Assembly: GCF_900109285.1 (NCBI RefSeq)
Contig: NZ_FNZQ01000001.1
Coordinates: forward strand, 649,001 to 713,000
Length of the DNA: 64,000 bases
Reading direction: 5' to 3'
Origin: Jannaschia helgolandensis
GTDB lineage: Bacteria > Pseudomonadota > Alphaproteobacteria > Rhodobacterales > Rhodobacteraceae
Shown: positions 1,453 to 26,300 of the stretch, piece by piece
How the letters are laid out: each line of letters begins with the position of its first letter
Numbering within the stretch: position 1 is the stretch's first letter
Program-made: the position numbers and the translations under genes
The notes under the pieces: model-generated
Databases searched by the model: none
What the model saw: the letters and a program-made list of their open reading frames with translations, nothing else
Told to the model about the DNA's origin: nothing

Positions 1453-1812
1453 ATGGCAAAGACGCAGTTCGCAGTCGAGATGGGAATGGGCACCGATCTG
1501 CGGGGGGCCGATTATACCAAGGCGGCCCGGCGCGCGGTGCATGATGCGCTGCACCGAAATTATCTGACCGTCGCGGATGCCTTCGGGTTTCCGAAGTCCG
1601 AGATGATCGTCGATATCCGTATCGGCATCGGTAAGCCGGAGGCCGTCGATCTTGAGGAAGTGAAGCGCGAGGCACCCTACGGACACATCTCCGCCGAAGC
1701 CGTCAAGGGCGGGGCAGACCTGGAAATGAACGGCAATATCGTGATTGTCGCCAATGCCATCGTCAGCGTGTCTTTCGACGTGCAGGCGGACGGCGCGGAG
1801 GGGGCGCCATGA
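1453..1812 (+). CDS. Lin0512 family protein, first of tandem pair
   Basis: 119-residue member of the conserved Lin0512 family (TIGR02058), whose function is not established to my knowledge. The family hallmark is at the N-terminus: VEMGMGTDLRGADYTKAA followed by RRAVHDALHRNYL. The ATG at 1453 is preceded by GGAGG. The frame is open far upstream (to 766), but the family signature begins a few residues after this ATG, so the short start is chosen. It overlaps the next gene, a paralogue, by 4 bases (ATGA), indicating translational coupling and perhaps a heteromeric product. The family is clear; a specific activity cannot be read from sequence. Confidence 0.88.
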   Translation: MAKTQFAVEMGMGTDLRGADYTKAARRAVHDALHRNYLTVADAFGFPKSEMIVDIRIGIGKPEAVDLEEVKREAPYGHISAEAVKGGADLEMNGNIVIVANAIVSVSFDVQADGAEGAP

Positions 1813-2186
1813 CCGAACGGGCACTGATCCTTGAGATGGGCATGGGCGCAGACGTGCATGGCCAGGATATGACCAAGGCCGCCCTGCGCGCGGTCAGCGA
1901 TGCGATCCGGCATTCGTCGCTGACACTGTTCGGGGCTTATAAGCACCCATCGGCAATGCGGGTCGAAGTGACTATCGCGGTGCCGTTACCCGATCAGGTG
2001 GACAAGGCGGCCGTGGCGGCGGCCCTGCCATATGGCATGATCGAGGTGACCGTCGTCGAAGGCGGGCTGCACGACCGGGGCATGGGCGGCAGGGAGGATA
2101 TCACGCTGGCCATAGCCGGAGTGAAAGCCTTTCTCGATACCGAAGGACATGGATTCACGCTGGACGGGTCCGGGTCTAGTTATTGA
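1809..2186 (+). CDS. Lin0512 family protein, second of tandem pair
   Basis: 125-residue paralogue of the preceding gene, with the better-preserved signature LEMGMGADVHGQDMTKAA and RAVSDAIRHSSL. The start ATG (1809) overlaps the upstream stop as ATGA. Both copies have a central region predicted from sequence to alternate beta strands and helices (VEVTIAVPLPDQVDKAAV here, VDIRIGIGKPEAVDLEEV in the first). The stop lies 11 bases inside the convergent kpsM-like gene. Function unknown; the pair is most simply read as two subunits of one complex. Confidence 0.88.
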   Translation: MTERALILEMGMGADVHGQDMTKAALRAVSDAIRHSSLTLFGAYKHPSAMRVEVTIAVPLPDQVDKAAVAAALPYGMIEVTVVEGGLHDRGMGGREDITLAIAGVKAFLDTEGHGFTLDGSGSSY

Positions 2187-2988
2187 AGTCGAGCGTGTAG
2201 CGATTCAGCAAGATCAGACCGATGACGGTCAGTCCCATTCCCAGGCCGAAGACATAAAGCGGTGACACGAAAGCCACGTCATAAAAGCTGTAGAGCGCAT
2301 GCCGCAATGTGCCGATGATATGCGTCAGCGGGTTGAACCAAAGGACAGACTGATAAGGCTCGGGCACGTCATCGAATAAGAAGAAAATTCCAGAAATCAG
2401 GAACATAGGGCGCATAACGATAGCCCAGACCCGCTCCCACAAGGGGAACATGCTGAACAGGAAGCAGTTCATCGTGCCCAGCCCGAACGCCAGCACGGCC
2501 AGCATGGCGACGGCCAGGGCAATCTGTGTGAAATCGACCGGCGCGCGGCTGCCGGTCCATGCGATCACGCCCGTCAGAATGATCGACGCGACCAAAAGCT
2601 GCACCAGCAAGTTCAGCATCAGCCGAGCCGTCAGAGCATCCAGATAGGACATCACCGGATAGGTCAGCAACTGGCGCGAGAACTTGATGGATTGTGCGAC
2701 CTTGCCCGCCAGATCGAAGAACATCGTGAAAGGCAGTACGCCGCTGGCATAGAACAGCGCGAAACTGGACCCGATGGGCGGGCTGCGCAGCGCCAGCGAG
2801 AACAGATATGTCATCAGCAGGATGCCGATCACCGGTTCGGCCACCGTCCAGAGAAAACCGCCGGGGGAGCGTCCGAAGGTCGAACTCATTTCCCGAAGGA
2901 TCAGCGCGGCGACCCGCCGGATGAAGCCGGCACGGCGTGGGGCTGCCGGAAAAGTTAACGTCTGTGTCCTGTCGGTTGCGTCAAACAT
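2176..2988 (-). CDS. kpsM: Capsular polysaccharide export ABC permease, KpsM-like
   Basis: ABC-2-type inner-membrane permease that moves capsular or exopolysaccharide with a KpsT ATPase and a KpsE polysaccharide co-polymerase. 270 residues with six hydrophobic segments. The N-terminal cytoplasmic RREMSSTFGRSPGGFLW-type block (here LILREMSSTFGRSPGGFLW) and the central FFLFDDVP/FNPLTHIIGTLRHALY stretch are typical of the KpsM/BexB/CtrC family. ATG 2988 is preferred over an upstream in-frame start at 3057 because homologues begin near here and GGAG lies upstream, although spacing is long. The gene is divergent from kpsE and kpsT; in most capsule loci kpsM and kpsT are co-transcribed, so this arrangement is unusual. 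Confidence 0.9.
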   Translation of the reverse strand: MFDATDRTQTLTFPAAPRRAGFIRRVAALILREMSSTFGRSPGGFLWTVAEPVIGILLMTYLFSLALRSPPIGSSFALFYASGVLPFTMFFDLAGKVAQSIKFSRQLLTYPVMSYLDALTARLMLNLLVQLLVASIILTGVIAWTGSRAPVDFTQIALAVAMLAVLAFGLGTMNCFLFSMFPLWERVWAIVMRPMFLISGIFFLFDDVPEPYQSVLWFNPLTHIIGTLRHALYSFYDVAFVSPLYVFGLGMGLTVIGLILLNRYTLDFNN

Positions 2989-3080: not shown

Positions 3081-4328
3081 ATGAATACGCAAGCGGACGG
3101 CCCGACCGCAACACTGAAGAAGCCGCGCAGCAAGCGGCAACGCGCGTTGGAGCAGAAACGTCTGCGTGAGAAACAGATCGAAGCCGCCATCCTGCCGCCT
3201 GCCGAACCCGCGCGCGTTCGTGGCCGTCATTGGGCAATGGTCCTTGGGTTCGTGCTGGTCGTCTGTCTGCCGGTCGTGATCGCGGGCTGGTATCTGACCG
3301 CCCGCGCAGCCGACCAATTCGCGTCTTTCGCAGGGTTCACCGTGCGGCAAGCCACCCAGACCGCGCCCGCCGTCGAAATTCTGGGTGGTTTGACCGACAT
3401 CTCGGGAACATCGACCGCCGACACCGATATTCTTTACAACTTTCTGTTTTCACAGGAACTCGTGCGTGCCGTCGATGACCGCATCGACCTGCGCGCAATG
3501 TGGTCCCTGCCACGGAACGATCCGGTATTCGCCTTCGACCCGGACGGCACGATCGAGGATCTGGTGCATTACTGGCGTCGCATGACCACCGTATCCTACG
3601 ATTCCGGCACCGGCCTGCTGGAGGTTCGGGTGCTGGCCTTCACCGCCGAAAATGCGCAACGCATCAATCAGACGCTGTTCGAAATCAGCACCGAGACGGT
3701 AAACGACCTGAACGCCGTCGCCCGCAGCGATGCCACCCGCTATGCCGCGGAAGACCTGCAAAATGCGCTGGACCGTCTGAAGGACGCACGAACGACATTG
3801 ACCGCCTTTCGCAACGACAACCGGCTGGTCGATCCGAATTCGGCGATCCAGGGTCAGGTCGGCATCCTGAACACGCTTCAGGCACAGCTGGCCGAAGCTC
3901 TGATCGAGTTGGACCTGCTGGGCGAGACAACCCGCAACAGTGATCCAAGGGTGACGCAGGCGCGGCGCAAGATCGAAGTGATCCGCACGCGTATCGAAGA
4001 CGAGCGCAACACGCTGGGTTTTAACGACAATACCGGCGAGGCCAGCGCCTTTGCCACAATCGTGGGCGAATACGAAGGCCTGATCGTCGATCTGGAGTTT
4101 GCGGAGCAATCCTATACCTCTGCGCTGAGCACCTACGATTCCGCCGTTGCCGATGCCAACCGGCAAAGTCGCTATCTGGCCGCGTATCTTGGCCCGACCA
4201 TTGCGGAACGTGCCGAATACCCGCGTCGTGTCGTGTTGCTGGGGTTGCTGGCGCTGTTCCTGGTTCTGGGTTGGGCGCTTCTGGTGTTGGGATATTACAG
4301 TCTCAAGGATCGTCAGGCGCGCCTGTGA
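3081..4328 (+). CDS. kpsE: Capsule polysaccharide export inner-membrane protein, KpsE/CtrB-like
   Basis: Polysaccharide co-polymerase type protein linking the KpsMT exporter to the outer-membrane channel. 415 residues: basic cytoplasmic N-terminus (1-50), membrane segment about 51-72, a long periplasmic domain with helical coiled-coil character (residues about 200-370), and a C-terminal membrane segment about 384-406. This two-anchor layout is that of KpsE/BexC/CtrB. ATG 3081 is chosen because the upstream extension (to 2937) runs through the kpsM promoter region. It overlaps kpsT by GTGA, so the two are translated together. The cognate outer-membrane protein (KpsD/Wza type) is not in the window. 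Confidence 0.9.
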   Translation: MNTQADGPTATLKKPRSKRQRALEQKRLREKQIEAAILPPAEPARVRGRHWAMVLGFVLVVCLPVVIAGWYLTARAADQFASFAGFTVRQATQTAPAVEILGGLTDISGTSTADTDILYNFLFSQELVRAVDDRIDLRAMWSLPRNDPVFAFDPDGTIEDLVHYWRRMTTVSYDSGTGLLEVRVLAFTAENAQRINQTLFEISTETVNDLNAVARSDATRYAAEDLQNALDRLKDARTTLTAFRNDNRLVDPNSAIQGQVGILNTLQAQLAEALIELDLLGETTRNSDPRVTQARRKIEVIRTRIEDERNTLGFNDNTGEASAFATIVGEYEGLIVDLEFAEQSYTSALSTYDSAVADANRQSRYLAAYLGPTIAERAEYPRRVVLLGLLALFLVLGWALLVLGYYSLKDRQARL

Positions 4329-5005
4329 TCGTCCTCGAAAATCTGCGAAAAAGCTTTGTGCTGAACGGTGCGGTCCGGCATGTCGCCAGCAACATCAACG
4401 CGGTCTTTCCTGCCGGGCGATCCGTCGCGCTGCTGGGTCGAAACGGGGTGGGAAAATCGACGCTTCTGAAGATGATCGCAGGGGCCGACCGTCCGACATC
4501 CGGGCGTGTCATCTGCCATGGCAGCGTGTCCTGGCCGGTGGGTTTCGCCGGGTCGTTCCACCCAGATCTGACCGGCGAACAGAACACCCGGTTCGTCGCC
4601 CGTATCTACAACACCGACACCGCTCAGATGATCCACTTCGTGCGCGACTTCGCCGAACTGGGACAGCATTTTCATCTGCCGGTCCGCAGCTATTCCTCGG
4701 GGATGAAATCGCGGCTGGCCTTCGGCGTCAGCATGGCGATCCGCTTCGATACCTATCTGGTGGACGAAGTCACCTCGGTCGGCGACGCCAATTTCAAGGA
4801 AAAGAGCAAGACCGTCTTCAAGGCCCGCATGCAGAAAGCGGGTGCGATTGTCGTATCGCACAGCAATTCGATGTTGCGCGACATCTGCGACATGGGTGCG
4901 GTTCTGGATGGCGGTCGGCTGACCATGTTCGAGGATCTGGATCTGGCCATCGACGTCCACGGAGAGAACATGCGCCGCAGCCGGATGCAGCCCGCGCAAA
5001 CCTGA
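4325..5005 (+). CDS. kpsT: Capsule export ABC transporter ATPase, KpsT-like
   Basis: ATPase of the capsule exporter, partner of the KpsM-like permease at 2176-2988. 226 residues starting at GTG 4325, which overlaps the kpsE stop. Walker A GRNGVGKST at 38-46, signature YSSGMKSRL at about 123 (the normal KpsT variant of LSGGQ), Walker B YLVDEVTSVGD with Asp147/Glu148, and switch region VVSHSNSMLRDICDMG. Length is normal for KpsT (about 215-225). An upstream ATG at 4271 would add 18 residues inside kpsE and is not needed. It ends 10 bases before the convergent RTX gene. Confidence 0.93.
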   Translation: MIVLENLRKSFVLNGAVRHVASNINAVFPAGRSVALLGRNGVGKSTLLKMIAGADRPTSGRVICHGSVSWPVGFAGSFHPDLTGEQNTRFVARIYNTDTAQMIHFVRDFAELGQHFHLPVRSYSSGMKSRLAFGVSMAIRFDTYLVDEVTSVGDANFKEKSKTVFKARMQKAGAIVVSHSNSMLRDICDMGAVLDGGRLTMFEDLDLAIDVHGENMRRSRMQPAQT

Positions 5006-5015
5006 CGGAGCGGCA

Positions 5016-8000
5016 TCAAAGGAAGCTGAGCGAATTTTCCATCTCAGCCGCGGTTTCGACCCCGTCCAGCTCGATCAAACTGCCATCGTCGAAGGTGAAC
5101 TCCACCCGGCCATTCGACACGGTGGCAAAGCGCGACAGGACTTCGGACGCCGACAGCGCCTCGCCCCCCCACAGATCGCGCGAAAGGGACAGCATGTCTT
5201 CGGCAGGCGTGAAGTCGGTGATCCGGTCAACGCCGTCTCCGACCCCATGTTCGAACCGGTCGTTGCCCGTGCCGCCGGTCAGGGTGTCGTTCCCCGCATC
5301 ACCCGACAGCGTGTCATTCCCGGCACCGCCGATCACCAGATCGTCGCCCGCATCGCCTCGGAACAGATCATTACCCCCGTCCCCCATGATCGAGTCGTTT
5401 CCGGCACCGCCATACACTTCGTCATTACCATGACGATTGGATTGCGGGTCGTCGATGAACAGATCGTTGCCATCGTCCAGATACACCAGATCCTGCCCCG
5501 CGCCCCCGATGACCTCATCATCGCCCGCCCCGGCATAGATGGTGTCGTAATAGCTGCCGCCGTCGATCCGGTTGTAACCCGATCCACCGTAGATCAGGTC
5601 ATTGCCACCTTCGCCCTCGATGAAATCGTCCCCGCCCCGGCTCATGATCGTGTCGTCGCCATCACCCGCATAAATCGTATCGCGCGCCTTTGACCCTGTC
5701 TGCGTGTCGTCGTCGAAATAATCGTTTCCATTCCCGAGATATACGACATCTCGTCCACCGCCGCCCGACACCCAGTCATTGCCGTCGCCAGCATAGATCG
5801 TGTCGAAATAGCCGCCGCCCTCGATCCGGTCGTCGCCTTCACCGCCGTACAGAAGGTCGTTGCCGTCGTCGCCCTTTATGACATCGTCGCCGCCGCGGCC
5901 AATGACAGTATCGTCGCCATCTCCCGCATAAATCGTGTCGCCCGCCTTGGACCCCGTCTGATCGGAATCCTCGAAGACATCGTTGCCCCGGCCCAGATGA
6001 ACGATATCCTTGCCGTATCCCGCATCGACCCAGTCATCGCCATCGCCTGCAATGATTGTATCGTACTGACCGCCTCCGAAGATCGTGTCGTTGCCGTCTT
6101 CACCATACAGCAAGTCATTGCCGCCGCCCCCGACGATGCGATCATTGCCGCGCCCGCCGTATACCGTATCGGTCCCTTCGATGTCGCTCTGATCGTCGTC
6201 CTCGAACAGGTCGTTGCCATCGTCCAGAAAGATCAGATCGCGTCCGGTTCCACCCCAGACGCTGTCGTTGCCCATTTCGGCGTGAATCGTATCGGCCCCG
6301 GCACCACCGTCCATCCGATCGCTGCCGTCGCCGCCGTTCATCAGATCGTCACCGTCACCGGCGAACAACGAATCCCGACCGGCGTGGCCGACGATCCAGT
6401 CGTTGCCTCCTTTGCCATCAATCCGGTCGTCGTCGCCCGACCCTTCCAGAATTTCGGAGGAGTTCGTTCCCTCGATACTGGACCCGATTGCCACCGAACC
6501 GAAGGCCAGACGCTGAACCGAAGACAGATCGATCGTGGCGCGCAGGGCTGCCGCCGCAAGGCTGGTTCCGTCGCTGGATGTGATCTCCAGCACTTCGTCG
6601 CCATAGGTTATCGTCGCGCCCGTCGACGTCGTCTGAATGTCCAGGTCGCCGACATCGCGCAATTGCCGCCACCGGGTCAGATCCAGTCGGTCTTGCATCA
6701 CATCGAAATCGGCGATGCGGTCCAGCTCGTCATCGGCCGCCATAGAAAAGACATCCCGTCCCGCTCCGCCCGAGAGCGTGTCGGTGCCGGACCCGTCCAT
6801 CACGATATCGTCGCCATCGCCCCCATTGACGGCGTCGTTTCCCCCGGCCCCGTTAATGATGTCGTTCTTCGATGTGCCATTGATCGTCTGACCATAGTCC
6901 CGCCCGCCCCAGGTCACACCGGCCTCGGCCAGCGAGATGCCGAACTGCGACACTGTCGCTTCGCCCTGGCTGCTGATGAAAACCTGGAGTTCATCGCCGA
7001 TGCGAACAGCGCTGATGGCCGAGACGTTGTTCAGGCTGATCCCTTCGCTGTCCTCGACCGTGTCGAGGTGGTGCAGGCGACCGTCGGGCAGCAGGACGAA
7101 CAGCGAGACACCGTCGTCGCCGCCCGCCGCAAGCACATAGGTGCGGTTGTCCACCGTAACGGTTTCAAGCACCAAGGCCCCATCGAAGCGCGTGTCGCGG
7201 CTGTCCAGCAGATGGTCCGTCGGTGTCAGGCTCCCGTCGCCATCCAATCGCATGACCGAAAGGGTCGAACTGCCGGATGCGGTGACCAGAACGAAGGTCT
7301 GGTCGTACATCTGGACCGTTTTCAACGCCGTTGGCGTGGCGATGCCGAAGCCGTTGTCTGCACCGAAGGACGACACTTCCTCGACACGGCCGTCGCCCCG
7401 CAGTCGATAGACGACAACGGCGTTCAGCCCGTCCACGGCGGCCATGATATAGGTCGTGCCGTCGACCACCGCCGAGGCCAGATCCTGAATATCCTCCCCT
7501 TCGATCCAGCGTGACCCGCTTATCGGGCCGCCCATTTCGGTCAGGTCGCGATTGGATTCGATCCTGTAATCGCGCAGGCCGGTGACGCCCTGTTGCGCGG
7601 TGATCAGGAACTGTGCGCCGTCCATCTCGACCTCGAGCGCCTGGCGCAGCCTGCCGGTGAACGGCAAGGGGGCATCGAACACGCGGGTCCGGTCCAGATC
7701 GCCTCCCGTGCGCAAATCGAAGCCGATCAGATCGTCGGTCCCGGTCCCGTCAATATAGACGTAGGACGTGCCGTTCAGCGACAGGGACCCCAGCCCGGTC
7801 AGGGCAAAGGGTGACATCCAGCCCGGAATCTCTTGAAATTCAACGGTCGCGGCGGTCGTGTCGCCGTCTAGCGCATAGACCTGTATCCCCTCGTCCACCA
7901 GGCTGAGCGTATACAGCATCGCCGTGCCATTGTGCCAGAACAGCTCCATATCCACGATGCCCGCCCCGGTCGTGGGTTCGGCATCGGCGTCAAGACTGGT

Positions 8001-8033
8001 CCCCAGCTGCGCGCGGTATATCAGCTGCTCCAT
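5016..8033 (-). CDS. RTX calcium-binding repeat protein with beta-propeller-like N-terminus
   Basis: Large acidic protein, 1005 residues from ATG 8033 (an extension to 8120 is possible; the chosen start has AGGGG upstream). Residues 1 to about 370 hold diverged repeats of the kind V-DG-TY-AAVDG-NAVVVYRL, resembling a lactonase or WD-like propeller. A first haemolysin-type cluster lies at about 385-435 and a long array of GGxGxDxxx nonapeptides at about 525-935. The C-terminal about 70 residues (DGVDRITDFTPAEDMLSLS and following) are typical of type I secreted proteins. No N-terminal signal peptide. The array carries an 86-residue super-repeat with GNDxFxDDxQ. Expected to be exported by a type I system (not in window) and to bind Ca2+ at the surface. 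Lies downstream of manC on the same strand. Confidence 0.93.
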   Translation of the reverse strand: MEQLIYRAQLGTSLDADAEPTTGAGIVDMELFWHNGTAMLYTLSLVDEGIQVYALDGDTTAATVEFQEIPGWMSPFALTGLGSLSLNGTSYVYIDGTGTDDLIGFDLRTGGDLDRTRVFDAPLPFTGRLRQALEVEMDGAQFLITAQQGVTGLRDYRIESNRDLTEMGGPISGSRWIEGEDIQDLASAVVDGTTYIMAAVDGLNAVVVYRLRGDGRVEEVSSFGADNGFGIATPTALKTVQMYDQTFVLVTASGSSTLSVMRLDGDGSLTPTDHLLDSRDTRFDGALVLETVTVDNRTYVLAAGGDDGVSLFVLLPDGRLHHLDTVEDSEGISLNNVSAISAVRIGDELQVFISSQGEATVSQFGISLAEAGVTWGGRDYGQTINGTSKNDIINGAGGNDAVNGGDGDDIVMDGSGTDTLSGGAGRDVFSMAADDELDRIADFDVMQDRLDLTRWRQLRDVGDLDIQTTSTGATITYGDEVLEITSSDGTSLAAAALRATIDLSSVQRLAFGSVAIGSSIEGTNSSEILEGSGDDDRIDGKGGNDWIVGHAGRDSLFAGDGDDLMNGGDGSDRMDGGAGADTIHAEMGNDSVWGGTGRDLIFLDDGNDLFEDDDQSDIEGTDTVYGGRGNDRIVGGGGNDLLYGEDGNDTIFGGGQYDTIIAGDGDDWVDAGYGKDIVHLGRGNDVFEDSDQTGSKAGDTIYAGDGDDTVIGRGGDDVIKGDDGNDLLYGGEGDDRIEGGGYFDTIYAGDGNDWVSGGGGRDVVYLGNGNDYFDDDTQTGSKARDTIYAGDGDDTIMSRGGDDFIEGEGGNDLIYGGSGYNRIDGGSYYDTIYAGAGDDEVIGGAGQDLVYLDDGNDLFIDDPQSNRHGNDEVYGGAGNDSIMGDGGNDLFRGDAGDDLVIGGAGNDTLSGDAGNDTLTGGTGNDRFEHGVGDGVDRITDFTPAEDMLSLSRDLWGGEALSASEVLSRFATVSNGRVEFTFDDGSLIELDGVETAAEMENSLSFL

Positions 8034-8159
8034 CTGGAAGCCCCTGCCAGAAGATGTGTCCGATACACTGGCGGTGCTTCGCGGTTGGCCATTGTCGGCA
8101 TTGCGGCAAACATCGGGCATTTAGCCGCAATTCGACTCGGGCTTTAGGCGAAGGCGCGA

Positions 8160-9575
8160 CTATCGCTGATAGGGATCTTCGAACCGGATGATATCGTCTT
8201 CGCCCAGATAGGCACCGGTCTGCACCTCGATCAATTCGACCGGAAGCTTGCCGGGGTTTTCGAGCCGGTGTCGCGCGCCCAGCGGAATGAACACCGACTC
8301 GTTCTCGCCCACCAGCGTGATTTCTTCGCCGTTCGTCACGCGCGCGGTGCCGGCGACGACGACCCAGTGTTCGGCCCGGTGGACATGGCTTTGCAGGCTC
8401 AGCGCCGCGCCCGGATCGACCACGATCCGCTTCACATGAAAGCGGTGCCCCTTGATCAGCGTCTCGAAGAACCCCCAGGGCCGGTGATCCTTGGGAAAGG
8501 TATCGGCCTGGGCGGCACCCATGGCGCGCAGTTGCGCGACCACGCCGCCCAATTCTCCGGACCGGCTGCGGTCGGCAATCAGGACCGCATCCGGCATGGC
8601 GATCGCGACGATGTCCCGCAGGCCCAGACCGACGATATGCTGCCCCGCGCTTTCCGACCGCAGCATCGTGTCCGCGCAATCCACCGCCAACGCCGGGCCA
8701 TGGGTCGCGGTGCCCGTTCCGTCGGTTGCAGCATGGCGATACACCGCATCCCAGCCCCCCAGATCAGACCAGTGCCCAGTGTATTCCACGACCGACAGGT
8801 TGTCGGCCTTTTCCATGATCGCGACATCGACCGAGACGTCATCGCAGGCAGCCCAGGGCTCTTCGGCCAGCCGCAAAAACCCAAGGTCCGGCCGGGCGCG
8901 GCCGATGGCATCGCGTATATTGGCCAGCATCTTGGGCGCATGGCGCGCGCAGGCGGCGATCATCGTGCGCGCGGTGAACAGAAAGACGCCCGAATTCCAG
9001 AGATGGCCGCCATCCGACATCATCGCCTCGGCCGTCGCCCGATCCGGCTTTTCGACAAAGCGCCGCAGCGGCGATGGGCTGGGAGCGTCGGGCGAGATTT
9101 CGAGGTATCCATACGCGGTTTCAGCCCGATCCGGGCGGATGCCGAAGGTGACGATACCGCCCGCCTGCGCCGTCGTTACCCCGGTCTGCACGGCGGCGCG
9201 AAAGGCGGGTGCGTCAGGCATATGATGATCGGACGGAGCGGCAAGGATCAACGCCTCCGGGTCGTGCTGCGCCAGCCGCAGCGCTGCGGCCAAGAGCGCC
9301 GGGGCCGTGTTGCGGGACGATGGCTCCAGCAGGACGGCGCCGGGGTCGATCCCGACTTCGGCCAGTTGTTGCGTGACGATGAAACGGAACGCCTGATTGG
9401 TCACGGTCACGGGCGCGGCGAAGCCCGGCCCCGAGAGACGCAGCGCGGTTTGCTGAAACAGGCTGGTGTCGCCGATCAAAGCCGCGAATTGCTTGGGATA
9501 GCTCTTGCGGGACAGGGGCCAGAGCCGCGTGCCCGATCCGCCGCACAGGATGACGGGCGTTATGGTCGTCGTCAT
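8160..9575 (-). CDS. manC: Bifunctional mannose-1-phosphate guanylyltransferase / mannose-6-phosphate isomerase
   Basis: Type II PMI-GMP enzyme (ManC/AlgA/XanB family) supplying GDP-mannose for polysaccharide synthesis. 471 residues. The N-terminal nucleotidyltransferase domain has VILCGGSGTRLWPLSRKSYP at about 8-27, SSRNTAPALLAAA and FVEKPD. The C-terminal cupin isomerase domain has RPWGFFETL, QSHVHRAEHWVVVAGTA and the metal-binding His/Glu set. ATG 9575 has GAGGAAA upstream and begins at the family's usual position; the open frame extends to 10004 without a convincing start. Same strand as the RTX gene and rfbA; no phosphomannomutase is visible in the window. Confidence 0.95.
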   Translation of the reverse strand: MTTTITPVILCGGSGTRLWPLSRKSYPKQFAALIGDTSLFQQTALRLSGPGFAAPVTVTNQAFRFIVTQQLAEVGIDPGAVLLEPSSRNTAPALLAAALRLAQHDPEALILAAPSDHHMPDAPAFRAAVQTGVTTAQAGGIVTFGIRPDRAETAYGYLEISPDAPSPSPLRRFVEKPDRATAEAMMSDGGHLWNSGVFLFTARTMIAACARHAPKMLANIRDAIGRARPDLGFLRLAEEPWAACDDVSVDVAIMEKADNLSVVEYTGHWSDLGGWDAVYRHAATDGTGTATHGPALAVDCADTMLRSESAGQHIVGLGLRDIVAIAMPDAVLIADRSRSGELGGVVAQLRAMGAAQADTFPKDHRPWGFFETLIKGHRFHVKRIVVDPGAALSLQSHVHRAEHWVVVAGTARVTNGEEITLVGENESVFIPLGARHRLENPGKLPVELIEVQTGAYLGEDDIIRFEDPYQR

Positions 9576-18324: not shown

Positions 18325-18401
18325 GGGCCCATAGCTCAGCTGGATAGAGCAGCCGACTTCTAATCGGCAGGTCGAGGGTTCGAATCCTTCTGGGCCCGCC
18401 A
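18325..18401 (+). tRNA. tRNA-Arg (anticodon TCT)
   Basis: Complete cloverleaf: acceptor GGGCCCA pairing with TGGGCCC, D-arm AGCTCAGCTGGATAGAGC, anticodon stem GCCGA/TCGGC with loop CTTCTAA (anticodon TCT, reads AGA), T-arm GGTTCGAATCC, discriminator G and encoded CCA at 18399-18401. Confidence 0.97.
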
Positions 18402-18548: not shown

Positions 18549-19904
18549 CTATTGCGTTAACCGGTCAAGAGGTGCCTTCAACGTCCAGCGAAAGCCCTCC
18601 GTCGCGTATTCGCGGCTTGTCTGTCCCGATGTTACGCCTTCAAGGAGAGGGCCGGTTACCTGATAACCAAAACCCTTGCGCGTCGGTACAATGACCGGCG
18701 GGCCGTCTGTTTCTATCCATGACATTTCCAACATCGGACTTGGCATATCATTGATCTTCCAGGACAATGTAACTGCGCCAGCTTCTTTTGATAGCGCACC
18801 GTATTTGGCGGCATTGGTGACCAGCTCGAATATCGCCATGCCAATGGCCTGTGTCACCGATTTGCTGAGGTGAACAGCCGGGCCGCTGATTACAACCTGA
18901 GGGTCCTCCGGGTCTATCAGGTGCGCAAACTGAGCATGCGCAAGCGATTCCAAGTCTACATTACTCCCCTTACTGCTGATCAACATATCCTGGTTCGAGG
19001 TAAGACTGGCTATACGGTTGTTAAATGCAGAAAAGAAATCTGCACCCTTGTAGAGACGCCACGTCTGTCGTGCGATTACCTGAACGACCGATAGTAAATT
19101 CTTCGATCTGTGGTTGATTTCCTCTAACAAGACTTGGATTTTGGCTTCGGATGCCTTTCGTGCGCTGATGTCACTGAAGATCGCCACGAAGCCTGAATAT
19201 TCCTGCGTTTTGTCATTTATGGCAGCGATGCTTTTTTCGACATGAAGCAGACGGCCATCCTTGTGAAGCTGCACAGCCTCACTTCTCAGGGTTTCTCCAG
19301 TGGCGATGTGCAAAAGATCGTCTGCCATCGTTTCCTGGTCTTCCGGTGTAACCAAAAGTGAATCGAACCGTTCCCCAATCGCTTCGGCTTCGGTGTAACC
19401 GAACAGATCCTCCGCAGCGGGATTCCAAGCGTGAATGATCAGGTCCCTATCGACCGACACGATGGCTTGAGGCGATGATCGTACCAGGCTTCGGAATTCG
19501 TCGCTTTCACGCCGCTTTGCTACAAGTTCCCGCTCGAATGAGCGGCGTTGTTCATTCTTAAAAACGCAAAAATGCGCATTTATCATGCGCCCGTTGATCA
19601 ATGTTGCACGGCCATTCATAAAAACGCCAAACCGCGTACCATCGCTACGTTCAATATCTATGGAAATTTCTGCAAAATGGCCATTCATGAGCAGAAGAGG
19701 GCGGAGATGGGTTTCGAAATAAATACGACCCGCCCGCGACAGGACATCGACAAAACGAAGGCTTTGGCACTGATCGGATGGGTCTATCCCCAACCACTCC
19801 CTTAGCGTAGCGTTGGTGAGTTCTATTTGGCCAGTTTCATTCATGACAACAAGCCCGCAGGGCCATAGGTCCGGGTCGATTCCGAAGGCAATCGCCTCGG
19901 TCAT
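18549..19904 (-). CDS. PAS-PAS sensor histidine kinase of the HWE family, partner of RsbQ-like hydrolase
   Basis: 451-residue soluble sensor kinase with no membrane segment. First PAS domain about 10-115 (GRIYFETHLRPLLLMNG is like the PAS of RsbP-type proteins), short coiled coil about 116-135, second PAS about 136-250 ending in the usual DISARKASEAKI. Kinase core: phospho-acceptor block EEINHRSKNLLSVVQ with His265, N-box ELVTNAAKYGALS about 360-372, and WIE at 396-398; this His / Trp-x-Glu combination defines the HWE family. ATG 19904 overlaps the stop of the hydrolase gene (ATGA). No response regulator is adjacent; alphaproteobacterial HWE kinases often act on PhyR-type general-stress regulators, which is inference here. 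Confidence 0.93.
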   Translation of the reverse strand: MTEAIAFGIDPDLWPCGLVVMNETGQIELTNATLREWLGIDPSDQCQSLRFVDVLSRAGRIYFETHLRPLLLMNGHFAEISIDIERSDGTRFGVFMNGRATLINGRMINAHFCVFKNEQRRSFERELVAKRRESDEFRSLVRSSPQAIVSVDRDLIIHAWNPAAEDLFGYTEAEAIGERFDSLLVTPEDQETMADDLLHIATGETLRSEAVQLHKDGRLLHVEKSIAAINDKTQEYSGFVAIFSDISARKASEAKIQVLLEEINHRSKNLLSVVQVIARQTWRLYKGADFFSAFNNRIASLTSNQDMLISSKGSNVDLESLAHAQFAHLIDPEDPQVVISGPAVHLSKSVTQAIGMAIFELVTNAAKYGALSKEAGAVTLSWKINDMPSPMLEMSWIETDGPPVIVPTRKGFGYQVTGPLLEGVTSGQTSREYATEGFRWTLKAPLDRLTQ

Positions 19905-20707
19905 GAAACGACCCGCGGACGAACAAACTCCACCAACGCTTCTGTTGTGGCTTCGGGGTAGCTGACGTGCGGACAATGGCCGGTCGCGTCCAAAATCACA
20001 TGGTCGGCATTCTGCATATTGTCCATTAACCATGTCCAGACGGTGGGAGGCACCAGGGCATCGTCCCGGCACTGTAACACCAGCGTAGGCTGCGTTATCA
20101 TCTTCACGTCCTCACGGTGGTCGAACAAGAACGTGACTTTTGCAAAATGCCGGGCAATGTCGGGATCTGTTTGACAGAAACTTTCAGTCAATTCTTCGCC
20201 AAGCGCCGGGCGATCGGGAACGCCCATGATCAGCGGTGCCATATCGCGTGCCCAACCCAGATAATTTACATCGAGGATATCCAGCAGACCAAGAAGATCT
20301 TGCTTCTCAAACCCGCCAACATAGTCCCCGTCGTTGGCATAGCTGGGCGACGGGCAGATCATAACGAGCCGGTCGATAAGGTCAGGGCGGCGTTTGGCGG
20401 CCAGCCCGATCGTCATCGCGCTGACAGAATGGCCGACCGCGATCACGTCCTTCAGACGGAGTTCGTCAAGGATTGCGACAAGGTCATCCACATGTCCGTC
20501 CAGGGAGGCGTAACGAACAGGGTCATAATGTTCCGTCGCGGATTTCCCATAGCCCATCAAATCATAGGTGATGACGCGAAAATCATTCTCGAATGCGGGG
20601 GCCACCTTGCACCACATGCCGCTGTCGCAGCCATAACCATGCAGGAAAACGATAGTTTTTTCGCCTGATCCGGTAATTTTGACAGCACAATGCTCGACTG
20701 CAGTCAT
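19901..20707 (-). CDS. Alpha/beta hydrolase of the RsbQ/D14/KAI2 family
   Basis: 268 residues, nearly identical in length to Bacillus RsbQ (269). Oxyanion block FLHGYGCDSGMW, nucleophile elbow GHSVSAM (Ser94), lid region CPSPSYANDGDYVGGFE and NYLGWARDMAPLIMG, then RDDALVP (Asp216) and ATGHCPHVS (His244) complete the catalytic triad. These lid and elbow motifs separate RsbQ/D14 proteins from ordinary esterases. In Bacillus, RsbQ activates the PAS-domain phosphatase RsbP for energy-stress signalling; in plants the relatives D14/KAI2 are hormone receptors. Here the gene overlaps a PAS histidine kinase, so a sensory rather than metabolic role is likely. ATG 20707 gives best spacing to GGAGA; ATG 20710 is also possible. 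Confidence 0.92.
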   Translation of the reverse strand: MTAVEHCAVKITGSGEKTIVFLHGYGCDSGMWCKVAPAFENDFRVITYDLMGYGKSATEHYDPVRYASLDGHVDDLVAILDELRLKDVIAVGHSVSAMTIGLAAKRRPDLIDRLVMICPSPSYANDGDYVGGFEKQDLLGLLDILDVNYLGWARDMAPLIMGVPDRPALGEELTESFCQTDPDIARHFAKVTFLFDHREDVKMITQPTLVLQCRDDALVPPTVWTWLMDNMQNADHVILDATGHCPHVSYPEATTEALVEFVRPRVVS

Positions 20708-21156: not shown

Positions 21157-21600
21157 TTATCGCTTGAACGGGTTTTTTCCGCCCATGATTTGCAAAAGGA
21201 AAGCACCCGAAGTCGTGATCAACAGGAAACCCTGGAAGGCTCCCATTGCCGTCATGAAACGAAGATGTCCGTTCGGGATAAGGTCGCCTCGTCCGAGAGT
21301 CGTGAAATTGACCAGTGAGAAATAGTAGTAATCCATGAAATTCAGGACTTTTCCCTCATCAGGTGGAGATGATGCAAGATCGCCGATCTGAAGGCTGTGC
21401 ACGGCAAACCAGAATCCGCCTGCATACAACAATGCTTCGATTGAGTGAGCAATCGCGATCATCGTAACCGCTATGGCAACGCAGTGCGCGGGATGACGTG
21501 CAGGTTTCACGAACTTGGCTGCAAAGCGCAACGCGACATAGTGGACTGCGGTGCTGGCGGCGATCAGGACCGCCACCAGCACGATTGCCGTTATCATCAT
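21157..21600 (-). CDS. Two-TM potassium-channel-like protein with altered selectivity filter
   Basis: 147-residue inner-membrane protein: hydrophobic segments at about 3-22 and 38-66, a pore loop (MDYYYFSLVNFTTLGRGDL) and a final helix GAFQGFLLITTSGAFLLQI. The layout is that of bacterial Ion_trans_2 proteins, in which the filter reads TTLGYGD; here it is TTLGRGD, with Arg replacing the aromatic residue. Potassium selectivity is therefore doubtful. Same strand as the copper island genes that follow upstream. Start ATG 21600, or the second Met at 21597. Confidence 0.8.
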   Translation of the reverse strand: MMITAIVLVAVLIAASTAVHYVALRFAAKFVKPARHPAHCVAIAVTMIAIAHSIEALLYAGGFWFAVHSLQIGDLASSPPDEGKVLNFMDYYYFSLVNFTTLGRGDLIPNGHLRFMTAMGAFQGFLLITTSGAFLLQIMGGKNPFKR

Positions 21601-21646: not shown

Positions 21647-22402
21647 CTATGCAAAGGCCGCGACGGTCATCGCCACTGCCATGCCGACCATCATCAGATT
21701 CTCGGTCAGCGACACGAAGCCCAGAGGCACTTTGCTGTCACCGCCGACGCACGCGCACTTCAGTTCCCGCTTGTCGATGTAGACAGCCTTGAAAACCGAT
21801 ACCGCGCCGATGGTACCGATGAAAAGAGCACCGGGAACAGACAACCACGGCAGGATCATTGCCGTCATCAGAAGACCTGCAATCGTCTCGACGAAGGGAT
21901 ATACGTAGCCATAGCGGACCCATCGTTTCGCCAGAAGATCGTAGTTAAGGAACATCGTCGAAAAGCTTTCGATGTCCTTGAGTTTCTGGAGGCCCAGAAG
22001 CACCATCGAGATCGAGATGAACCAGCCCAATGTCTGCCAGGCGAAGATCGAGGGCAGTGCAACCCAGGCGAAAGCCAGAGCCAGCAGGGCCGCGACCGAG
22101 AACAACGCGATGACCGGCTGGTAGGTTGTGTCATCGGCATCCCGGACCGTCTTGCCGAAATGGACCTGAAGAGCTTCGTAGCCGCCGACCCGCTTCCCGT
22201 CGATGAAGGTCTGCGGCGTCGTCTTGACATCATGCTCGCGCATGAAGGCGTCGGTCTGCTCGCGCGAGGTGAGTTGGTGGTCCTCCACCTCGAAACCCTC
22301 GCGCTCAAGCAGATCCTTGGATTTGAGACCGTAGGGACAGGTGTGTTCGTCCATCGCCATCCTGTACAGGACAGCAGTCTTCGCCTGGGTATCCTTGGGC
22401 AT
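21647..22402 (-). CDS. Glutaredoxin-MauE fusion membrane protein
   Basis: 251-residue fusion. Residues about 8-85 are a glutaredoxin fold with monothiol-type CPYG (Cys22), TTPQTFIDGKRVGGYEAL giving the cis-Pro and glutathione-site motifs. Residues about 95-251 form a four-helix MauE/DoxX-like membrane domain with CAC (Cys216, Cys218) near the end, suited to passing reducing equivalents across the membrane. It lies 13 bases downstream of the DUF305 gene in a copper-resistance cluster, so a role in thiol or copper redox balance in the envelope is reasonable. Only one cysteine is in the glutaredoxin active site. Confidence 0.85.
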   Translation of the reverse strand: MPKDTQAKTAVLYRMAMDEHTCPYGLKSKDLLEREGFEVEDHQLTSREQTDAFMREHDVKTTPQTFIDGKRVGGYEALQVHFGKTVRDADDTTYQPVIALFSVAALLALAFAWVALPSIFAWQTLGWFISISMVLLGLQKLKDIESFSTMFLNYDLLAKRWVRYGYVYPFVETIAGLLMTAMILPWLSVPGALFIGTIGAVSVFKAVYIDKRELKCACVGGDSKVPLGFVSLTENLMMVGMAVAMTVAAFA

Positions 22403-22415
22403 TGAAGCTCTCCTC

Positions 22416-23261
22416 TCAGTTACAGGTCAGATATCCGTCGAAGCCAACCCGCAGTGCCGGTTCCGTCATGAGGTCGAAGATCAGGTCCGCACCTTCACCT
22501 TCGTCCGAATCCGGGGGCGTCAGGGTCATGCGGATGCCTTCGGCTTCCATCGTCGCGGCATCGCCTTCAAGCAGGATCAGCGATCCGGAAATCTTGGCCA
22601 CGCCACGTCCGTCCGCGGTTGCAAAAATCGGATCGGCGTCAACGGCACGTTCGAAACGGCAGGTTGCATCGGTGCCCAAGGCGCGGGTGATTTCCTCTTC
22701 GGTCATGGGGTCCGGCCGGATACCGGCGATCACGGGAGTGGCCAGCGCTTCGGCGATTGTTTCGACCGGGGCTTCGGCATCGGATTTCCCGAGGAGAGCG
22801 TCTGCACCGGCTTCACCATTGCGATCGATATCCTCGATCATCCAGCGCATCTCGGAAATTTCCCGGTTCTGGGCGACCACGATCTCCTCGGCCAGTTTGG
22901 CCACGCGGGGATCGGTGATTTCGGCCCGGCGCGAAGTCAGGATTGCGATGGAGTGGTGCGGGATCATCGCCTTCATCCAGGCCTGATCTCCGATCGTGTC
23001 CTGGCTGCGGAACAGGTACAATGCGCCTGCGAAGACTATGGCGCTGCCCCCGAAGATGGCGAGATTGATCATCTTGTCGGAATACATGCTCAGCATGAAA
23101 AGCAACATGATCACCGCCATCATCGCCCCCATATAGAGAGCCATGTAAACGCGGCTTTCGCTGTAATAAAGGTGCTCCCAGGCATAGGAATTTGCGTACA
23201 TCAGACCGTACATCACGATCGTGGATGTGACGATCATGCCTAAAAAGCGCCAATATGACAT
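22416..23261 (-). CDS. DUF305 domain membrane protein
   Basis: 281 residues: three membrane helices at about 5-24, 38-58 and 66-84, then a DUF305 (ferritin-like helical) motif WMKAMIPHHSIAI with His102/His103, followed by an acidic soluble domain ending TEPALRVGFDGYLTCN. DUF305 proteins often sit in copper or heavy-metal resistance loci and are thought to bind metal through the HH motif; direct function is not established. Probably co-transcribed with the Grx-MauE gene (13-base gap). About 54 bases downstream of cueR on the same strand, so it may belong to the same transcript. Confidence 0.87.
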   Translation of the reverse strand: MSYWRFLGMIVTSTIVMYGLMYANSYAWEHLYYSESRVYMALYMGAMMAVIMLLFMLSMYSDKMINLAIFGGSAIVFAGALYLFRSQDTIGDQAWMKAMIPHHSIAILTSRRAEITDPRVAKLAEEIVVAQNREISEMRWMIEDIDRNGEAGADALLGKSDAEAPVETIAEALATPVIAGIRPDPMTEEEITRALGTDATCRFERAVDADPIFATADGRGVAKISGSLILLEGDAATMEAEGIRMTLTPPDSDEGEGADLIFDLMTEPALRVGFDGYLTCN

Positions 23262-23315
23262 GGTATTCTCCTCTGATTACCACATCAAACAACCTTCCAG
23301 TGCAGGATAGTTCCC

Positions 23316-23699
23316 TCAGGGTTCCAAAGATTTTATGATCGGGCAATCCGGTCTGCTGTCGCCACGGCAATGCTCGATAAGTTCAGCCAGCGTTGCACGC
23401 ATGGCAAGCAGTCCCGCGATCTTGGTGTCGATTTCGGACAGATGCCCATTGGCGATGCGTTTTACCTCTGCCGAAGTGCGGGCCTCGTCTTCCCACAGTG
23501 CCAGAAGCGCTCTGCAATCGTCGATCCCGAAACCCAATGCCCGCGCTTTCCCAAGGAACGTCAGCTTGTGCACGTCACTATCTTGGAACGACCTGTAGCC
23601 GTTGTCTTCGCGCAGGGGTCGGACAAGCCCGATCTCTTCGTAATAGCGGATCGTCTTTGGCGGTACGCCGGACCGCTCTGCCGCAGCCGAAATATTCAT
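23316..23699 (-). CDS. cueR: MerR-family copper-responsive regulator CueR
   Basis: 127-residue Cu(I)-sensing activator. N-terminal winged-helix motif NISAAAERSGVPPKTIRYYE, dimerisation helix, and metal loop CRGDSRPDC (Cys111, Cys119) closely matching the Cys112/Cys120 pair of E. coli CueR. The start overlaps the copA stop by ATGA, so copA and cueR form one transcript and the regulator controls its own operon through the sites upstream of copA. Confidence 0.94.
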   Translation of the reverse strand: MNISAAAERSGVPPKTIRYYEEIGLVRPLREDNGYRSFQDSDVHKLTFLGKARALGFGIDDCRALLALWEDEARTSAEVKRIANGHLSEIDTKIAGLLAMRATLAELIEHCRGDSRPDCPIIKSLEP

Positions 23700-26155
23700 G
23701 CCGGAACCTCCATGGGCATTGCCGCAGGCGTGGGGTCTGCGGCGGGTGTCGCGGCCCGGCGCAACCGCAGCGCATTGGTCAGAACGAAGACCGACGACAG
23801 CGCCATTGCCCCCGCCGCCAGCATTGGCGACAGCAGGGTGCCCGTGAAGGGATAGAGCACGCCTGCCGCTACGGGGATCAGCGCTACGTTGTAGGCAAAG
23901 GCCCAGAACAGGTTCTGACGGATGTTCCGGATGGTTGCCTTGCTGATGGCCAACGCACGGACGACGGCATCCAGCTCGCCGGCCATCAATACCACGTCCG
24001 CCGCCTCGATGGCGACATCGGTGCCGGTGCCGATGGCGATGCCGACATCGGCTTCGGCCAGCGCCGGCGCATCGTTGATGCCATCCCCGACGAAGGCGAT
24101 TGCGCCGTGGTCGGCGCGCAGCTGATGCAGTGCATCGACTTTGCCTGCGGGCATCACTTCGGCCACGACGTGATCAATGCCCAGTCGATCGGCAACGGCA
24201 CGTGCGGTGGTCGCCGCGTCGCCCGTGATCATCGCGACCTCCAGCCCCAGATCGTGAAACGCACGGATCGCGGCGGGGGTCGAAGCCTTGACCGGATCAT
24301 CGACGCCGATCGCAGCCGCCACTGCCCCGTCGACGGCGAGCCACAGCGGTGTGCGGCCTTCGCTGGCAATACGATCAGCCTCGGCACGTAGGGGGGCGGG
24401 GTCGATGCCGCGCTGCACCAGGAACCGTTCGGCCCCGATCAGCACGGCGCGGCCTTCGACCGTGGCGGTGACGCCAAGGCCGGTGTGGCTCTCGAAGTCC
24501 TGCGCTTCGGGCACGTCCAGTCCGTCCTCCTCGGCGGCGCGCAGGATGGCACGGGCGATCGGGTGTTCCGACTTCGTCTCGACTGCCGCTGCAAAAGCCA
24601 GGGCAGTGGCGCGGTCATGGCCGGTCGCAACGGACAGCGCCGTCAGTGCGGGGCGCCCTGCAGTGAGCGTTCCGGTCTTGTCCAGTGCCACCACCTTCGC
24701 ACCCTGCAACGCCTGCAATGCGTCGCCCTTGCGGAACAGCACACCCAACTCTGCCGCCCGTCCCGTGCCAACCATGATCGAAGTCGGAGTGGCCAGACCC
24801 ATCGCACAGGGGCAGGCGATGATCAGGACCGAAACGCCTGCCACCAGTGCCAGCGCCGGATCGACCAGCAGCCACACCGCGACCGTCAGCGCCGCCAATA
24901 CCATGACCACGGGGACGAAGACGCTCGTCACCCGGTCGACCATCGCCTGAATCGGCAGTTTCGCGCCCTGCGCCGCCTCGACCATGCGGATGATCTGCGA
25001 CAGGACTGTATCTTCGCCCACCGCTCCGGCCCGCATCGTCAGCGCGCCCGCGCCATTGACCGTGCCGCCGGTCAGCGTGTCGCCCGCGACCTTGCGCACG
25101 GCGTCCGGTTCACCCGTCACCATGCTTTCATCGACCCATGACGCGCCATCGGTCACGGTGCCATCCACCGGCAGTCGCTCGCCCGGCCGGACCTCGACCA
25201 GATCACCGCTCACCACCTCAACGAGGGGAACCTCAATGACTGCTCCGTCGCGGATTACTTGCGCGGTGGCGGGTCGCAGCCCGACCAGCCGGGCAATGGC
25301 GGCGCCGGTACGGCCCCGCGCCCGTGCTTCCAGCCAGCGACCCAGCAGGATCAGCGTGGTGATGACCGCAGCCGCTTCGAAATAGATGGCGCGCGTGCCT
25401 TCGGGGAAAATTCCGGGTATGAGAAGTGCCACAGTCGAATATGCCCAGGCCGCAAACGTCCCGATCGCCACGAGGCTGTTCATTTCGGGCGCACCACGCA
25501 ACAGCGCGGGGATGCCCTTGGTGAAAAAGCTGCGTCCCGGCCAGGCAAGGATCACTGTTGTCACCACGAACTGGAACCACCAGGACGTCATGCGTCCGAC
25601 GGCACCTTCGAACGCGTCGCGGAAACCGGGAATGAAGTGGCCGCCCATTTCGATCACGAAGACCGGAAGGGTCAGGATTGCGGCGATGACCAGCCGCTTG
25701 AGCAACTCTCCCGCGATATCGTCATGGCTGCGACCGCTCTGTGTGCTGTCGCCATGCGGACTGGCGTCATAGCCGGCCTCGGTCGATGCGCGGGCCAGTT
25801 CGGCAGGTGTCGCCGTGCCTGCAAGCGTTGTGACAATTGCGCGCCCCGTCCCGAAATTCGCCTCGGCCCCGGTCACGCCGGGAACCGCTTTCAGGGCCTT
25901 CTCCACGCGACCCACGCAGGACGCACAGGACATGCCGGAAACATCCAGCGTGATGGTATCCGTCGTCGCCGGATAGCCCGCCCGCTCCAGCGCGGCGGCA
26001 AGTTCGGTCATCTCCGGTGCCCCGTCGACCGTAGCGCGCCCAGTCGCAAGGTTGACCTGCGCACTCGTCACGCCCGGCACGCTGGCAAGCGCTTTCTCGG
26101 CGCGTCCGACGCAGGACGCACAGGACAGCCCCTCGATTTCGAAAGTCTGGGTCAT
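23696..26155 (-). CDS. copA: Cu(I)-exporting P-type ATPase CopA
   Basis: Inner-membrane P1B-type ATPase pumping Cu+ to the periplasm. 819 residues. Two N-terminal metal-binding domains (GLSCASC, Cys12/15; GMSCASC, Cys77/80), eight membrane helices, transport-site CPC at 448-450 (IACPCAMGLATP), phosphorylation site Asp492 in DKTGT, SEHPIA motif and GDGINDAPAL hinge. All catalytic residues are intact. ATG 26155 follows CCGGAGA; the open frame extends to 26269 across the promoter and is rejected. Operon with cueR, divergent from copZ. Confidence 0.97.
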   Translation of the reverse strand: MTQTFEIEGLSCASCVGRAEKALASVPGVTSAQVNLATGRATVDGAPEMTELAAALERAGYPATTDTITLDVSGMSCASCVGRVEKALKAVPGVTGAEANFGTGRAIVTTLAGTATPAELARASTEAGYDASPHGDSTQSGRSHDDIAGELLKRLVIAAILTLPVFVIEMGGHFIPGFRDAFEGAVGRMTSWWFQFVVTTVILAWPGRSFFTKGIPALLRGAPEMNSLVAIGTFAAWAYSTVALLIPGIFPEGTRAIYFEAAAVITTLILLGRWLEARARGRTGAAIARLVGLRPATAQVIRDGAVIEVPLVEVVSGDLVEVRPGERLPVDGTVTDGASWVDESMVTGEPDAVRKVAGDTLTGGTVNGAGALTMRAGAVGEDTVLSQIIRMVEAAQGAKLPIQAMVDRVTSVFVPVVMVLAALTVAVWLLVDPALALVAGVSVLIIACPCAMGLATPTSIMVGTGRAAELGVLFRKGDALQALQGAKVVALDKTGTLTAGRPALTALSVATGHDRATALAFAAAVETKSEHPIARAILRAAEEDGLDVPEAQDFESHTGLGVTATVEGRAVLIGAERFLVQRGIDPAPLRAEADRIASEGRTPLWLAVDGAVAAAIGVDDPVKASTPAAIRAFHDLGLEVAMITGDAATTARAVADRLGIDHVVAEVMPAGKVDALHQLRADHGAIAFVGDGINDAPALAEADVGIAIGTGTDVAIEAADVVLMAGELDAVVRALAISKATIRNIRQNLFWAFAYNVALIPVAAGVLYPFTGTLLSPMLAAGAMALSSVFVLTNALRLRRAATPAADPTPAAMPMEVPA

Positions 26156-26186
26156 CGTCGTCTCCGGATTCGATTCATTCCCCCTA

Positions 26187-26214
26187 ATGAAGGTTCCCAA
26201 GACTGGAAGGTCAA
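26187..26214 (-). promoter_or_regulatory. Probable CueR-type promoter of copA-cueR
   Basis: Reading leftward: -35-like TTGACC followed directly by TTCCAG, an inverted half-site GGGAA about 9 bases later and a -10-like CATTAG after a 19-base spacer. The long spacer with TTCC/GGAA dyad inside it is the hallmark of MerR-family promoters. The dyad is imperfect. It lies about 40 bases upstream of the copA start. Confidence 0.65.
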
Positions 26215-26241
26215 GGGACTTCGAAAATATTCTGGCCCGGC

Positions 26242-26268
26242 TTGACCTTCCAGCGGGGGAACATCCCA
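26242..26268 (+). promoter_or_regulatory. Probable CueR-type promoter of copZ
   Basis: The same 12-base sequence TTGACCTTCCAG as in the copA promoter, in opposite orientation, followed by GGGGGAAC as the second half-site. The -10 hexamer is weak. It ends about 33 bases before the copZ start. Two facing copies of one 12-mer within 51 bases suggest that CueR drives both directions. Confidence 0.6.
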
Positions 26269-26300
26269 CTTACACCGGACGCAAGCCCGAGGAGATTTCC

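Follow-up and report, generated by a model that had tools for sequence, protein, structure and literature searches.

Gene organization of the hydrolase-kinase pair

The window analysed is a stretch of 64,000 nucleotides from Jannaschia helgolandensis (contig NZ_FNZQ01000001.1, positions 649,001 to 713,000), and the locus in question is a pair of adjacent genes on its minus strand. The 5' gene of the pair (19901..20707, ATG start) encodes an RsbQ-type alpha/beta hydrolase of 268 amino acids (P0001), as assigned from Pfam, the closest PDB structure and the tree. The second gene (18549..19904) encodes a PAS-PAS-HWE histidine kinase of 451 amino acids (P0002), as assigned from its open reading frame (ORF) and Pfam. 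The hydrolase stop and the kinase start overlap in the sequence ATGA (19901..19904), which was already pointed out in the initial annotation made from the sequence alone. The next gene upstream of the hydrolase encodes an ion-channel protein (21157-21600) and lies about 450 bases away; a tRNA-Arg gene (18325-18401) is convergent with the kinase gene, about 150 bases past its end. Because of the overlap, the upstream gap and the convergent tRNA gene, the pair looks like a two-gene operon, and a single message probably encodes both proteins.

The pair is interpreted here as an RsbQ/RsbP-PAS ('Q-PAS') sensory module with an HWE histidine kinase output, at a probability of about 0.78. The gene structure, the family membership, the conservation of the catalytic triad and of the F-alpha helix in the first PAS domain, and the recurrence of the two genes as a unit are direct observations and are described below.

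Phylogenetic placement and conserved residues of the hydrolase

The hydrolase contains an Abhydrolase_6 domain (Pfam, 2e-24). A PDB search gave RsbQ of Bacillus subtilis (1wom, 7e-79) as the closest solved structure, followed by Olei00960 (3e-66) and then rice D14 (2e-55). The lid and elbow motifs named in the initial annotation (GHSVSAM, NDGDYVGGFE and NYLGWA) were all found, and so was the full triad. The codon of the catalytic Ser94, in the GHSVS elbow, lies at 20426..20428, that of Asp216 at 20060..20062 and that of His244 at 19976..19978, all on the minus strand. Each of the three residues is kept in 47/47 paired loci, that is, loci in which a PAS domain of the RsbP type adjoins the hydrolase.

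The hydrolase tree was reconstructed from 61 loci and six PDB rows, and is divided into an RsbQ side and a D14/KAI2 side with a support of 98/92. The RsbQ side consists of 50 loci together with RsbQ and Olei00960; the D14/KAI2 side includes 11 bacterial loci and the other four PDB rows (rice D14, DAD2, a Physcomitrella KAI2-like protein and 7ukb). The window hydrolase was placed inside the RsbQ side. The early placement in the RsbQ/D14 family is therefore right at the level of the family, whereas a position on the D14 side is ruled out by the 98/92 branch.

The residues are in line with the tree. The marks of the RsbQ side in the 47 paired hydrolases are C27 (45/47), F177 (47/47), C178 (45/47) and C245 (46/47), and the window hydrolase has all four. 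Cys245, which directly follows His244 (GHC), is present in 0/11 of the bacterial D14-side loci; these hydrolases have T at position 27 in 8 cases, L at 177 in 10 and L at 245 in 7. The Ser, Asp and His of the triad are kept in 11/11 of them.

Domain organization of the kinase

The kinase was predicted from the beginning to be a PAS-containing HWE kinase, and the domain searches bear this out. PAS2 (residues 136-250, 19155..19499, minus strand) matches Pfam PAS_4 at 1.8e-18 and ends in DIS (tail FSDIS). It is followed by the HWE_HK domain (residues 262-342, 18879..19121, minus strand; Pfam 1.4e-16, 61.4 bits vs a curated cut-off of 22.8), in which H265 of the HRSKN motif is the likely phospho-acceptor, a role assigned by family. 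The C-terminal ATP-binding region (18567..18878, minus strand), supported by an alignment to the HWE kinase 6ph4, contains the WIE motif (W396, E398), which we take to be a mark of HWE kinases. The kinase core also matches blue-light-activated histidine kinases in the PDB (4e-31).

No Pfam family was found in residues 1-130 at an E value of 0.001, and PAS1 (residues 14-128, 19521..19865, minus strand) was therefore called by way of its homologues. In several related partners the matching N-terminal stretch scores as PAS, and a profile of the RsbP-type PAS matches the window kinase over residues 14-128, in agreement with the proposal that its first PAS domain resembles that of RsbP. The same domain was found in Streptomyces partners annotated as SpoIIE-type phosphatases (L034 and L079 of the locus set). 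A profile of 47 related PAS1 domains gave weak matches to sensor domains in the PDB, the best two being 3ewk ('sensor protein', 5.8e-5 over 31 positions) and 1ll8 ('PAS kinase', 6.8e-5 over positions 7-97). PAS1 has a WPCG motif, and its tail reads HFCVFKNEQRR, so the DIT motif is missing.

The F-alpha helix of PAS1 is of the common type: R60 (R/K in 38/47), Y62 (Y/F in 37/47), H66 (H in 34/47) and P69 (P in 45/47). The positions that define the RsbP class, according to the available text of PMC3183031, are C10, L13, L48, Q53, F55, C56, Y59, E72 and P86. With a register taken from this published spacing and not from the RsbP sequence, 8/9 of them appear to fit in PAS1, as we read the residue classes (C16, V19, L55, R60, Y62, F63, H66 and E79).

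Recurrence of the pair in other genomes

Related loci were collected by hydrolase similarity. Whole-genome searches at E 1e-40 gave a match in 7/198 genomes of the family, 11/385 of the class and 20/398 of the phylum, the genome of the window included; a single-protein search for related loci gave 2 loci only. Among plasmids, 74 records match, and 24 hydrolase regions from 23 of these records were chosen for diversity, 22 of them before the tree. Twelve duplicate loci (L037, L062-L072) were dropped before the profile search, which left 61 loci.

An RsbP-type PAS, as detected with a profile built from the window PAS1, adjoins the hydrolase in 47/61 loci, in one of them (L060) within a single chain. 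The distribution follows the tree: the domain comes after the hydrolase in 47/50 RsbQ-side loci vs 0/11 bacterial D14-side loci (Fisher 9e-10). With loci from the whole-genome searches only, the window included, the figures are 30/32 vs 0/5 (Fisher 5e-5); both p values overstate independence, because the loci are related by descent. The flanking genes, compared by ORFs and annotation, differ among the paired loci. Of the two outcomes that would have spoken against the initial annotation, a lack of the pair in related genomes and a hydrolase outside the RsbQ/D14 clade, neither was observed, and because of the recurrence a chance neighbourhood of hydrolase and kinase was rejected. Two further loci, added once the tree had been built, stand outside all counts and are unplaced in it. 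L084 (Caballeronia sp. NK8), outside the training of the profile, carries an RsbP-type PAS at 2.6e-38; for L085, an RsbP-type PAS was not found nearby.

The locus L060 (genome G816, 586-2334, minus strand) encodes a natural single-chain RsbQ-PAS-GGDEF fusion of 582 amino acids, which is the plainest natural evidence that the hydrolase and the PAS domain work together. The distances among hydrolases and among PAS1 domains are also correlated (r 0.82, n=47; 0/2000 permutations as high). In the 25 pairs taken as HisKA, six of which are not classed by Pfam (L035, L047, L049, L050, L052 and L080), the partial r of hydrolase and PAS1 given the output domain is 0.71, and that of hydrolase and output given PAS1 is 0.56. 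Species history is still present in all of these distance correlations.

Output domains and the HWE branch

The outputs of 38 of the 47 paired loci could be classed by Pfam. HisKA was found in 21 (L026 and L027 only below the cut-off), HWE in 8 (the window, L006, L007, L009, L011, L012, L013 and L023), GGDEF in 6 (L032, L051, L054, L055, L056 and L060), HisKA_2 in 1, a SpoIIE-type phosphatase in 1 (L034, Streptomyces) and an ATPase domain alone in 1 (L017). The kinase outputs classed are 31: HisKA 21, HWE 8, HisKA_2 1 and ATPase domain only 1. L057 matches HisKA_2 best (73.6 bits) and also passes the HWE_HK cut-off (31 vs 22.8); it was counted as HisKA_2. The unclassed outputs are those of L005 (partner cut short), L035 (partner annotated as a PAS sensor kinase), L047, L049, L050, L052, L059, L079 and L080. 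Two genomes with GGDEF pairs contain a second locus: G816 has the separate two-gene pair L055 besides the fusion, and the genome of the paired copy L056 is that of L061.

All 8 HWE pairs come from the family of the window or from named Rhodobacterales (Pseudorhodobacter, Loktanella). Other members of the same family have a HisKA output (L008, L010). The hydrolase tree contains a group of 10 rows (95/90) with the 8 HWE pairs, L005 and L026 (Hymenobacter); the 8 HWE pairs and L005 without L026 are weakly supported (81/0). One clade of the 8 HWE pairs and L005 was not rejected in the PAS1 tree (p-AU, the approximately unbiased test, 0.62). These trees allow that the HWE output may have had a single origin, which they do not demonstrate.

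Two loci of this group show further features. In L023, on a plasmid of Loktanella salsilacus, the pair is followed by a gvpD-annotated gene with an ATPase domain and by a second HWE kinase gene (6314-8804). In L005, from Oceaniovalibus sp. ACAM 378 (3639-4802, 5804-6316), a gene that reads as integrase-like lies just upstream of the pair; the kinase frame stops early, 75 bases before the contig end, as a broken gene or at an assembly edge.

A second pairing on the D14/KAI2 side

Hydrolases of the D14/KAI2 side were also found next to signalling proteins. In 4/11 bacterial loci on this side (L018, L019, L073 and L075), the hydrolase precedes related proteins, which according to the profile are not RsbP-type PAS proteins. 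L073 is on plasmid pP6W2 of Novosphingobium sp. P6W, and L075 on plasmid p1 of Sphingosinicella sp. BN140058. The gap between hydrolase and partner is 3 bases in L018 and 6 bases in L019; L073 has a GTGA overlap, and its partner is truncated where the record ends. In L075 the open frame of the partner crosses the hydrolase stop, with the annotated start 290 bases downstream. The partners consist of an N-terminal region (GAF-like by eye; no Pfam match there in L018 and L019), a PAS domain, and then HisKA or GGDEF: HisKA in L018, GGDEF in L019 by Pfam and in L075 by annotation and motif. Leave-one-out profiles recovered the partners of L018, L019, L073 and L075 at E values of 1.6e-19, 6.8e-40, 2.6e-27 and 7e-12 vs about 1e-5 to 1e-3 for other PAS proteins of the set; the match of L075 extends over only a small part of the N-terminal region.

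In the tree, L019 and L073 group with the four D14/KAI2-side PDB rows at a support of 99/80. In L077, a PAS protein overlaps upstream of the D14-side hydrolase; the remaining six loci have no such partner in the stretch examined. No further D14-side pair turned up among 4 genomes from the order of the L018 genome and 7 from that of the L019 genome, and the class search repeated with the L018 hydrolase returned the same 11 genomes. Plasmid searches with the N-terminal regions of these two partners gave no match for L018 and, for L019, nothing beyond the Novosphingobium record that was in the set before. No description of this pairing was found in the literature on KAI2 with GGDEF or on strigolactone with bacterial hydrolases or diguanylate cyclases, the returns of which look unrelated as listed. 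The D14/KAI2-side bacterial hydrolases beside signalling proteins bear on the origin of strigolactone and karrikin perception in plants; KAI2 possibly arose by transfer of a bacterial RsbQ, according to the available part of a review (PMC10504578).

Proposed mechanism and alternative models

In the proposed mechanism, the hydrolase would bind a small molecule and probably hydrolyse it. By analogy with the B. subtilis work, it would touch the F-alpha helix of PAS1 in the region R60-P69, and its triad would be required for signalling. In B. subtilis, the F55A substitution in the F-alpha of RsbP abolished RsbQ binding and signalling, and triad substitutions were null in an earlier finding cited in the same paper (PMC3183031, available text). 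Ligand binding or turnover would then alter the contact between the hydrolase and PAS1, and the change might run from PAS1 through PAS2 to the HWE core, where it would shift autophosphorylation at H265. The phosphate would be passed to a response regulator encoded elsewhere; the identity of this regulator and the sign of the output are matters of inference only.

How such a module works can be explained by two models, product delivery and receptor, both offered in the available text of PMC3183031. In the first, the hydrolase passes a product or cofactor to the pocket of PAS1, which is the true sensor. Ligand binding is common among PAS domains, and the triad is kept in all 47 paired hydrolases, as a need for catalysis would predict; however, a ligand had not been found in the RsbP-PAS as of 2011 by the same text, and triad conservation cannot separate the models, because the 11 D14-side hydrolases without an RsbP-PAS keep the triad too. 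Product delivery is plausible, at somewhat less than even odds. In the receptor model, ligand occupancy changes the contact of hydrolase and PAS1 in the manner of D14/KAI2, and hydrolysis only resets the protein. The membership of the hydrolase in the same family as D14/KAI2, the conserved F-alpha surface and the natural fusion L060 are consistent with this model, whereas the likeness to D14 is at the family level only, as the window protein falls within the RsbQ side; the chances for and against it appear evenly balanced. The hormone-receptor-like mode suggested in the initial annotation, which may apply, is this one of the two. It is very improbable that the hydrolase serves as an ordinary esterase in metabolism and lies beside the kinase by chance. 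The generic hydrolase families that match, and the few RsbQ-side loci without a PAS partner (3/50), would fit such an enzyme, but the partner is kept in 47/50 loci despite differing flanking genes, the fusion exists, and among the NCBIfam matches listed (25 of 31) all are below the cut-offs.

Several points weigh against reading the pair as a Q-PAS module with HWE output. The ninth RsbP class position, P86, is Gly93 in PAS1, where 34/47 have Pro. The RsbQ-side loci L058, L061 and L076 have no RsbP-type PAS in the stretch examined, and the loci scored with the PAS profile also served to train it, L084 being the only held-out positive. In the 8 HWE pairs, the partial r is -0.20 for hydrolase and PAS1 vs 0.87 for hydrolase and output; because of these values, PAS1 is not singled out in this group. 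Structure models from three-sequence alignments (predicted local distance difference test, pLDDT, 56 and 40) were too poor for use. No response regulator gene adjoins the window pair, and no published experiment on the pair was found.

Possible link to the general stress response

The HWE kinase might phosphorylate PhyR, so that the pair would feed into the NepR/EcfG general stress response; this is a tentative reading. HWE/HisKA2 kinases coordinate this response in Alphaproteobacteria, according to the available part of PMC12148442. The window genome has one NepR match by profile, and the ORFs beside it (L041) read as PhyR-like and EcfG-like by eye, not by profile. Among 19 alphaproteobacterial genomes with an RsbQ-side locus, 17 have NepR: 6/6 with an HWE output and 11/13 others. 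These counts do not set the HWE pairs apart, because NepR is in most of the non-HWE genomes too; it was found in 0/6 genomes tested among 10 non-alphaproteobacterial genomes with an RsbQ-side locus. Five HWE_HK matches are present in the window genome, one being the window kinase, and two others already flank NepR, which counts against the window kinase as the one acting on PhyR. HWE kinases also serve other regulators. The EcfG promoter pattern GGAAC-N15..18-CGTT has 0 matches in the window, and GGAAC-N16..17-SGTT has 1, inside the kinase gene, vs 2.2 expected by shuffling; the pattern is not enriched, and an EcfG promoter upstream of the pair was rejected. PhyR is a reasonable candidate target because of the NepR, PhyR-like and EcfG-like genes in the genome and the role of HWE/HisKA2 kinases in Alphaproteobacteria.

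Neighbouring genes

Further upstream on the same strand (21647-26269) are genes for a glutaredoxin-MauE protein, a DUF305 protein, a MerR regulator and a heavy-metal P-type ATPase-like protein, the last identified by reading. Azospirillum ramasamyi (L074), too, has a DUF305 gene adjoining its D14-side hydrolase. Integration often takes place at tRNA ends; a tRNA-Arg gene lies beside the kinase, and relatives of the hydrolase are also found in the 74 plasmid records.

Comparison with known systems and significance

The RsbQ-RsbP pair of B. subtilis, in the energy-stress arm of sigma-B, also has the hydrolase gene directly upstream of a protein with an N-terminal RsbP-type PAS, an intact triad, and a PAS1 end without the DIT motif; it differs in having a coiled coil and a PPM phosphatase, whereas the window has a second PAS and an HWE histidine kinase. 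Nadezhdin, Brody & Price (2011) described 45 adjacent pairs of RsbQ and RsbP-PAS homologues, with a PPM phosphatase, histidine kinase or diguanylate cyclase output (PMC3183031, available text). The kinase-output pairs there share the hydrolase, the RsbP-PAS in the N-terminal-most place and the kinase, and extra PAS domains occur in them too. This kind of sensor, histidine kinase output included, has therefore been known since 2011. The word 'HWE' is absent from the text of that paper and the class is not named in it, although HWE members may still be in its Fig. 2 list. No paper covering both RsbQ and HWE was found in the literature search; what is added here is the HWE-output branch, which was not found described in the literature searched.

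Plant D14/DAD2 and KAI2 share the hydrolase family and the triad (2e-55 to rice D14), whereas the window hydrolase falls on the side of RsbQ (98/92) and has C27, F177, C178 and C245. The HWE/HisKA2 kinases of the general stress response, such as the LOV kinase RT-HK (PMC12148442, available part), have the same HWE catalytic core; their input is a LOV domain, whereas that of the window kinase is an RsbP-type PAS, a second PAS and a partner hydrolase.

The kinase output could be assayed directly in vitro, as autophosphorylation with and without the hydrolase and candidate ligands, which is a simpler read-out than the sigma-B cascade; such a convenient read-out bears on the question of the RsbQ ligand. 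It is rather unlikely, though conceivable, that a single hydrolase-PAS receptor serves as the input of two general stress responses unrelated to each other: in Bacillus, that of RsbV/RsbW/sigma-B by way of a phosphatase, and in a branch of the Rhodobacterales, that of PhyR/NepR/EcfG by way of an HWE kinase. If this were true, a metabolite would be a stress cue common to several phyla.

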